This document shows, one piece after another, positions 2,707 to 35,745 of a stretch of 35,830 nt of DNA (its first letter is position 1; each line of letters begins with the position of its first letter). A model generated the notes under the pieces. It saw only the letters and a program-made list of their open reading frames with translations. It was not told where the DNA came from and made no database searches. Made by a program: the position numbers and the translations under genes. The stretch covers positions 7,249 to 43,078 of the forward strand of contig JAMCZK010000023.1 of the NCBI GenBank assembly GCA_023485685.1, given 5' to 3'. Source of the DNA: Chloroflexota bacterium (GTDB lineage Bacteria > Chloroflexota > Anaerolineae > Anaerolineales > UBA11579).

Positions 2707-2766
2707 CAACCTTGCGAAGGTTTGAATCAGGTTAGTGAAATGCTCATTGAAACCTTCGCAAGGTTG
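2707..2766. repeat. Interspersed inverted repeat, copy 1
   Basis: Two perfectly complementary 17-nt arms, CAACCTTGCGAAGGTTT at 2707-2723 and its complement at 2750-2766, separated by 26 nt. Each arm contains its own small CCTT/AAGG near-palindrome. A second element sharing 13 nt of each arm and the same layout lies at 32201-32258, so this is a small dispersed intergenic family. It lies between the convergent 3' ends of the hydrolase gene and ftsZ. Confidence 0.75.
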
Positions 2767-32200: not shown

Positions 32201-32258
32201 AGCCTTGCGAAGGTTGGATTAGATCCTGCTAGATTTCAAGACCAACCTTCGCAAGGCT
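32201..32258. repeat. Interspersed inverted repeat, copy 2
   Basis: Perfect 17-nt arms, AGCCTTGCGAAGGTTGG at 32201-32217 and its complement at 32242-32258, with a 24-nt centre. It starts 6 nt after the rny stop. It shares CCTTGCGAAGGTT with copy 1 at 2707-2766; the centres are unrelated. Confidence 0.75.
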
Positions 32259-34851: not shown

Positions 34852-35745
34852 ATGGAAATTAACCAATCGATTTGGCTAACCAAAGTTATCGACTTTCGAA
34901 AAACCCGGGAAGGAAACCTGCGCCGCGAGTATGGCTGGCTCTCGCTGGCCGGGCTGTTTTGGCTGCGGGAGGGCGACAACACCTTCGGCAGTGCCGCAGA
35001 CAACCCGATCCGTTTGCCGGAGCGGGCGCCAGCGCAAGCTGGCGTTTTCACACTTCACCATGGACACGTGACGATAACCAAGGCTCCCGATGTTTCTATT
35101 CGGCTTAACAAAGACGAACTGGGCAACGTCAGCGCTGCCCTCAAAGTGGACACCAGCGGAGACCCGGACTACCTGTTCCTCGACGATCCCTCGTCGCCCC
35201 ATTCGCTCCGCTCAGGGCAAGCTCCAAGCGGCTTGCTCGGGACAAGCCTGCGCATGATGGTGATTGAGCGGGCGGGCAAGCTTGCAATCCGCGTCTGGGA
35301 CCCGCAAAGCCCGGTGCGCGGCGACTTCGCTGGCTGCATCTGGTACGAACCGGATGCTCGATTCCGCGTAAACGCCAAAATCGAGACCTACCCCCAACCG
35401 CGCCAGTTCATGATCGATGACATCGTAGGCATCCAGCGGCCGGTCACCATGCACGCCGCTTTGGCCTTCGAACTCAATGGCAGGGAATATCGCTTGGATG
35501 CCGAACGTCAAGACGACAACTCATACGACATCATCTTCAAAGACACCACTGCAGGTAAGTCCACATATGCCGCCGGGCGCTACCTGACCACGGAGGTTGC
35601 AGAAGGCGACCAGGTGATTGTCGATTTCAATTACGCCTACAACCCGCCCTGCGCCTTCACCGCCTTCGCCACCTGCCCGCTGCCGCTGCCGCAAAACATT
35701 TTGCCGGTGGCGATCGAGGCGGGGGAAAAATTTGATCAGCGCTAG
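34852..35745 (+). CDS. DUF1684 domain protein with an in-frame repeat insertion
   Basis: A 297-residue cytoplasmic protein of the DUF1684 family, recognised from the start (DFRKTREGNLRREYGWLSLAGLFWLREGDNTFGS) and the C-terminal FNYAYNPPCAFTAFATCPLPLPQN. The family has no established biochemical role that I know of. The start is 15 nt after the tryptophanase stop, with only a weak ribosome site. Between DYLFLDDP and RMMVIERAGKLAIRVWDP there is an extra stretch (about residues 115-131, SPHSLRSGQAPSGLLG), encoded by a palindromic intergenic-type repeat. The rest of the frame is intact, so the insertion seems tolerated. Confidence 0.85.
   Translation: MEINQSIWLTKVIDFRKTREGNLRREYGWLSLAGLFWLREGDNTFGSAADNPIRLPERAPAQAGVFTLHHGHVTITKAPDVSIRLNKDELGNVSAALKVDTSGDPDYLFLDDPSSPHSLRSGQAPSGLLGTSLRMMVIERAGKLAIRVWDPQSPVRGDFAGCIWYEPDARFRVNAKIETYPQPRQFMIDDIVGIQRPVTMHAALAFELNGREYRLDAERQDDNSYDIIFKDTTAGKSTYAAGRYLTTEVAEGDQVIVDFNYAYNPPCAFTAFATCPLPLPQNILPVAIEAGEKFDQR
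35193..35247. repeat. REP-like palindromic element inside the DUF1684 gene
   Basis: ATTCGCTCCGCTCAGGGCAAGC followed closely by GCTTGCTCGGGACAAGC includes perfect 6-nt arms (35217-35222 and 35231-35236) and an approximate longer palindrome. In the reverse strand it gives the ACPERSEW-type peptide that marks a widespread class of dispersed repeats. Only one copy lies in this window. It keeps the reading frame open. Confidence 0.55.

Follow-up and report, generated by a model that had tools for sequence, protein, structure and literature searches.

The window analysed here is a stretch of 35,830 nt (positions 7249-43078 of contig C16) from G000, a 1.71-Mb draft genome of 56 contigs with a completeness of 76%. 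Near its end, at 34852..35745 on the plus strand, lies an open reading frame of 297 amino acids, the carrier of the insertion described below. Its product scores 142.4 bits against PF07920 (DUF1684), for which the curated cut-off is 25 (E 1.4e-41), and thus belongs to this profile. The protein has a single full-length match in its own genome, and its nearest homologue is 62-67% identical. The contig ends 85 nt beyond the gene. A mechanically called reverse-strand ORF at 35169..35378 (minus strand) is not thought to be a gene; it reads ACPERSEW, which agrees with the original prediction of a PERSEW-type peptide in the reverse frame.

A 60-nt in-frame insertion in the DUF1684 gene

The insertion occupies 35188..35247 on the plus strand and is read as PSSPHSLRSGQAPSGLLGTS, 20 amino acids (residues 113-132), with the codons for FLDD before it and those for LRMMVIERAG after it. 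It is N-terminal to the Pfam DUF1684 domain, which follows intact at 35323..35730 (plus strand, residues 158-293), and the frame stays open throughout, so that the claim of an open frame and an otherwise intact protein is borne out by the same Pfam match. To place the insertion among homologues, we aligned 32 homologue rows, from which seven short or partial rows were excluded, leaving 25 full-length sequences, 23 of them from related genomes and two (L061 and L103) from other phyla. The insert columns were empty in 24 of the 25 and held one residue in the remaining one (L036). The alignment proposed as a check on the original prediction therefore upholds the insertion, as 0/25 homologues, including both from other phyla, carry the loop; its size, however, had been put at about 16 residues (35193-35247), in place of the 20 residues found here.

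Using the insert alone as the query, we found two further copies in the genome that match it end to end, one within a peptidase gene (C46:12712-12771, 56/60 identical) and one intergenic (C11:44076-44135, 54/60 identical). Their alignment scores were 100 and 90, as against a maximum of 27 in 300 trials with shuffled inserts. By eye, likeness ended at the insert edges, the DNA flanking both copies being unlike that of 35188-35247 on either side, and no clear target-site duplication was seen. Full-length matches to the insert were absent from 60 related genomes, where all matches at E<=0.01 were of 32 nt or less among the candidates scored (at most 15 per genome in the most repeat-rich genomes). 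These two copies, with the 35 places of the core repeat described below, substantiate the proposal that the DUF1684 gene contains a dispersed repeat in its reading frame; the suggested count of genomic copies thus gave a positive answer. The two findings named in advance as speaking against the proposal, namely the same loop in homologues from unrelated bacteria or a lack of further genomic copies, were not made, because such copies exist and 0/25 homologues have the loop. That the family had an ancestral loop resembling the repeat by chance is almost certainly the wrong explanation, being refuted both by the lack of the loop in all 25 full-length homologues and by the 90-93% DNA identity with other copies over 60 nt.

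The repeat had also been described as palindromic, and in this respect the original prediction was not supported for this copy. It folded no better than its shuffles, either as RNA (z -0.62) or as DNA (z +0.92 and +0.89), and no signal of a palindrome or stable hairpin was obtained for insert or core. The 60-mer is open in five of six frames, which mononucleotide shuffles equal in 29% of cases. We considered selection for readability of the repeat and rejected it, since, by these mononucleotide shuffles, short G+C-rich sequences commonly have as many open frames.

In two structure predictions of the DUF1684 protein the C-terminal domain was modelled well and the N-terminal half poorly. Placing the loop on a model, which had been suggested as a further check, was accordingly informative in part: pLDDT was below 50 across most of the insert, and the second predicted structure hints weakly at a strand at residues 134-140, directly after it. 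The nearest solved relatives, 2lnu and 2lok, cover barely more than the C-terminal domain. The predicted tryptic peptide of the protein is SGQAPSGLLGTSLR.

Nested structure of the repeat

The insert can be divided into a 36-nt outer repeat and a core repeat, nested within it, that adds 24 nt. The left part of the outer repeat lies at 35188..35198 (plus strand, CCCTCGTCGCC) and occurs elsewhere in the genome in a core-free form, whereas the right part lies at 35225..35247 (plus strand, CAAGCGGCTTGCTCGGGACAAGC). Between them is the core, 27 nt at 35198..35224 (plus strand, CCCATTCGCTNCGCTCAGGGCARGCTC; C16:42446-42472 in genome coordinates, E 2.3e-8), the exact junction between the left part and the core being ambiguous by a few bases.

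The same difference in length recurs where the outer repeat occurs with and without the core. Measured from CCTCGTCG to CGGCTCGCTCGGG, the core-free outer repeat was found at 11 distinct places and is 29 nt long at eight of them (28, 31 and 34 nt in the others), while the core-bearing form spans 53-54 nt in 4/4 distinct places, a gain of 24-25; three rows are excluded from this tally, two as second readings (of L021 and of the window) and one because it takes in only part of L195, a diverged copy with the core. A second family of the form CCTTGCGAAGG...CCTTCGCAAGG, hereafter the TGCGAAGG repeat, behaves alike, with 55-59 nt in nine of ten distinct core-free places (87 nt in one) and 80-82 nt in all six core-bearing places. 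These span counts are no census, most loci having been fetched for holding the core and duplicates of the same place having been removed by hand. Two core-free repeats of the second family, which holds the core elsewhere, lie in the window itself at 2709..2763 and 32202..32256 (no strand assigned). Both have conserved outer arms, AACCTTGCGAAGGTT and AACCTTCGCAAGGTT, which enclose a variable stretch of some 30 nt, and more such repeats are present in the fetched loci. By these lengths, the core acts as a unit that contributes about 24-26 nt. The host repeats give no direction for the change; in MalQ, comparison with relatives shows that exactly 8 residues were gained.

The core is abundant in this genome. 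A 21-nt core pattern was found with up to three mismatches at 35 places in the 1.71 Mb, and the reversed pattern at none; within the window the feature was its sole match, where 0.01 would be expected from shuffling. With up to two mismatches there were 31 places in G000, as compared with 0-5 in each of the 60 relatives, and the expansion of the core looks, on these counts, particular to the G000 lineage. A model built from 30 copies found no fewer than 84 matches at E<=1 in G000, no fewer than 45 of them at E<=0.0013; as 150 of 1433 candidates were scored, both counts are lower bounds. Shuffles of the core are, like the core itself, open in five of six frames in 73% of cases. Column 11 of the core varies freely and sits, on the reverse strand, at the centre of GCGNAGC, which we take to be a DNA mini-hairpin motif and which, to our knowledge, the standard energy model does not credit.

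Copies within other genes

To locate copies relative to genes, we applied a gene caller that uses codon scores and had been trained on the window to 49 copies (E up to 0.0127) out of the 84 matches at E<=1, a set that omits C37:22453, which was assessed apart, and C4:8944-8961. Seven of the 49 lay wholly in coding sequence with the frame open, as compared with 37 expected by position. Besides DUF1684, they are found in MalQ, a fatty-acyl-AMP ligase, an M28 peptidase, a CPBP-ABC protein and a hypothetical protein, and at the panE-panC junction. Five candidates (L004, L005, L011, L017 and L028) were rejected as coding copies, the gene caller having placed the repeat upstream of the start. That the whole pattern is an assembly or binning artefact of the draft genome might be argued from its 56 contigs and 76% completeness and from the end of contig C16, which lies only 583 nt beyond the insert. 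We consider this highly improbable, because the frame is open at seven separate places, unlike what misjoins would give; moreover, a usual read would be longer than the unit, which lies inside the contig.

The MalQ insert has 8 residues, which are absent from 21/21 relatives and from three aligned solved 4-alpha-glucanotransferases. The M28 peptidase insert amounts to 31 residues (93 nt), judged against one usable homologue, and the CPBP-ABC protein is 19 residues (57 nt) longer than 11/11 relatives. These two additions, and the 88 nt at the panE-panC junction, are each longer than the recognisable repeat. The inserts in the fatty-acyl-AMP ligase and the hypothetical protein lie in linkers or loops that already vary in length among relatives. 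The hypothetical protein, of 197 amino acids (L195:1654-2244, that is, G000:C50:23099-23689), contains a diverged long repeat whose reading corresponding to the DUF1684 insert is PSSPRSPSLRSGSGQAPGGSLGTGS; of 24 relatives, 11 gave a match to this protein. In the genome itself, a single match was obtained for each of MalQ, the ligase and PanE-PanC.

The seven coding copies are read in three different frames and on both strands. Three of them use a forward frame giving HSLRSGQA (SLRSGQA or SLRSGSGQA) and one gives PFASLRAG; a reverse frame giving EPALSxANG or similar is used in three, and the reverse frame that contains a stop in none, as is necessarily so. Strict exaptation, in which the inserted peptide would be a selected new property of the DUF1684 protein, shares the insertion itself with the explanation we favour. 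It could draw on the open frame and on the recurrence of the SLRSGQA or SLRSGSGQA reading in three of the seven; yet three frames and both strands are represented among the same seven, the insert is no more open than its shuffles, and 0/25 full-length homologues carry it. The precedent of the Rickettsia gmk insert, judged neutral or slightly harmful in PMC2229807, also speaks against exaptation, which we regard as very unlikely.

In the CPBP-ABC protein, fusion of the two parts by the repeat was ruled out, because 11 of the 24 relatives searched are fused and full-length, and all 11 are without the insert; the repeat is, to judge from these relatives, an addition to the linker. The coding linker of this gene also has a parS-like site, TGTTTCACGTGAAAC, at L003:1465 (contig C15), which is read as VSRET and which we take to be a ParB site. 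A second such site (L003:506) lies about 930-970 nt away, near the start of the gene. Two parS-like sites (<=2 mismatches) were present in 11/11 relatives fetched (L310-L320). In four relatives the codons were read, and these agree in the synonymous bases of the linker site. The G000 repeat insertion is directly downstream of this linker site.

Separately, a ptsI-like gene at L021 (G000:C37:22453) keeps its first domain, PEP-utilisers_N, alone, followed by an array of outer repeats. Downstream of this remnant is a gene that by eye resembles pyruvate phosphate dikinase.

The panE-panC junction

In 10/10 relatives of the same genus, the stop codon of panE and the start codon of panC overlap, as seen by eye, in ATGA or GTGA, with the two genes in different frames. 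The corresponding place in G000 carries an extra 88 nt, counted by eye, that include the core and produce a single frame of 612 amino acids; about 23 of the added nucleotides, again by eye, are recognisable as core. Compared with these relatives, the joined frame is new, and we infer that the repeat region may have fused PanE to PanC at the protein level, while translation of a separate PanC may still begin at the ATG of panC.

Origin and persistence of the insertions

Cumulatively, we consider it very probable that the 20 extra residues of the DUF1684 protein are the insertion of a mobile repeat whose copies survive in genes as tolerated in-frame spacers. Copies would land at many places and be retained chiefly between genes, and those within genes would persist where they add a multiple of three nucleotides, introduce no stop and fall in a linker or loop, so that the protein would tolerate a neutral or mildly harmful spacer. 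No gained function needs to be invoked for the in-frame copies, because survivorship of in-frame insertions suffices.

It is also conceivable that the DUF1684 gene had already been inactivated and that its open frame is transient, as the truncation of the ptsI-like gene at such repeats in the same genome might suggest. This account likewise shares the insertion with ours, and the likelihoods given here for decay and for exaptation are for that reason not exclusive of the one given for the tolerated insertion. Against decay, the DUF1684 domain scores 142 bits with neither a stop nor a shift, and like events occur in MalQ and at panE-panC, each with a single match in the genome, and that every one of these genes is dead is unlikely. 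We therefore hold decay to be improbable, if somewhat less so than exaptation.

As for the mover of the proposed tolerated repeat, a REP-associated tyrosine transposase (RAYT) is a candidate, which would move the units as single strands. Six Y1 transposase matches were found in G000. Three Y1 genes scored with the RAYT model NF047646 reached 66.4, 72.7 and 78.5 bits, all under its cut-off of 80. The RAYT-like gene scoring 72.7 bits (L144:1270-1836, contig C31) has TGCGAAGG repeats on both sides, one of them with the core, and the locus looks, from this arrangement, like a REPtron or TIRtron. A second Y1 locus, cut by the contig end, has one repeat arm at 116 nt, and at the remaining four of the six no arm or core was found within 1 kb. 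Movement by a RAYT as single strands is accordingly offered as a tentative suggestion, one we would rate somewhat below even. Doubtful, and less probable still, is the fuller scheme in which a mobile element of 24-26 nt nests in repeats, travels as composites of 36+24=60 nt, acts as a portable peptide linker, is moved by a RAYT and could create fusions such as panE-panC.

Considered more widely, these observations illustrate, beyond Rickettsia and the REP-rich species of the literature consulted, the way in which short selfish repeats add peptides to apparently working enzymes. Core-free and core-bearing examples are available both in genes and in the host repeats, and the nested structure shows that a composite repeat can lie in a gene as a single unit. 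MalQ, with its 8-residue insert and solved relatives, would be well suited to gauging what such an insert costs.

Comparison with known repeats

In the open-licence literature, including that on repeats of Chloroflexi and Anaerolineae and judging by its listings, we found no account of this repeat family. The closest precedents are the Rickettsia palindromic elements (RPEs) and intragenic REPs. RPEs, according to PMC2229807 and PMC3767692, are in-frame insertions at solvent-exposed positions of conserved proteins, and the RPE-bearing guanylate kinase of Rickettsia (gmk) is described in the former as active with altered affinity. The present repeats are likewise dispersed and in frame in conserved protein genes, with seven coding copies, and have CGTC near one end of the outer repeat, much as CGTC is the reported terminus of RPEs in R. 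conorii (PMC3733652). They differ in size, RPEs being 105-146 bp with a long stem-loop, as against 60 nt or about 24-27 nt here; in fold, as neither the insert nor the core has a stable one; and in host, which here belongs to the Anaerolineae (Chloroflexota).

The GTAG and CGTC REPs, as set out in part of PMC3733652, are 20-40 bp long, mostly intergenic and in some cases intragenic, and occur in several species; GTAG repeats are reported there from Chloroflexi, an intragenic Chloroflexi case not being seen in that part. Core-free outer copies resemble CGTC REPs in having, by reading, CGTC at the foot of a GCCGC/GCGGC inverted repeat (CTCGTCGCCGCAAAGCGGCTC). The stems of CGTC REPs are nevertheless given in the same part as 8-9 bp long, beginning with A-T pairs and closed by a loop of 4-5 nt, whereas the outer repeat has a stem of 5 bp and a loop of 3 nt, as read from the sequence and not from folding. 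By the features tested, the present repeat belongs to neither the RPE nor the CGTC families.

Nesting is also a feature of the cyanobacterial SDRs. The present repeats are like these in their small size and dispersed occurrence, to go by a second-hand description in which SDRs are dispersed repeats of about 20 nt that are possibly mobile (PMC2884548). The enterobacterial RU-1/RU-2/RU-3 repeats (ERIC, YPAL) are small repeats described, in a review and in PMC2759123, as fused in frame with proteins, but their units measure 103-168 bp. We thus regard the insertions in G000 as a new example of a phenomenon already known, with close precedents in the RPEs of Rickettsia and in intragenic REPs; what sets them apart from the known systems is their size, their sequence, the lineage in which they occur and their nested make-up.
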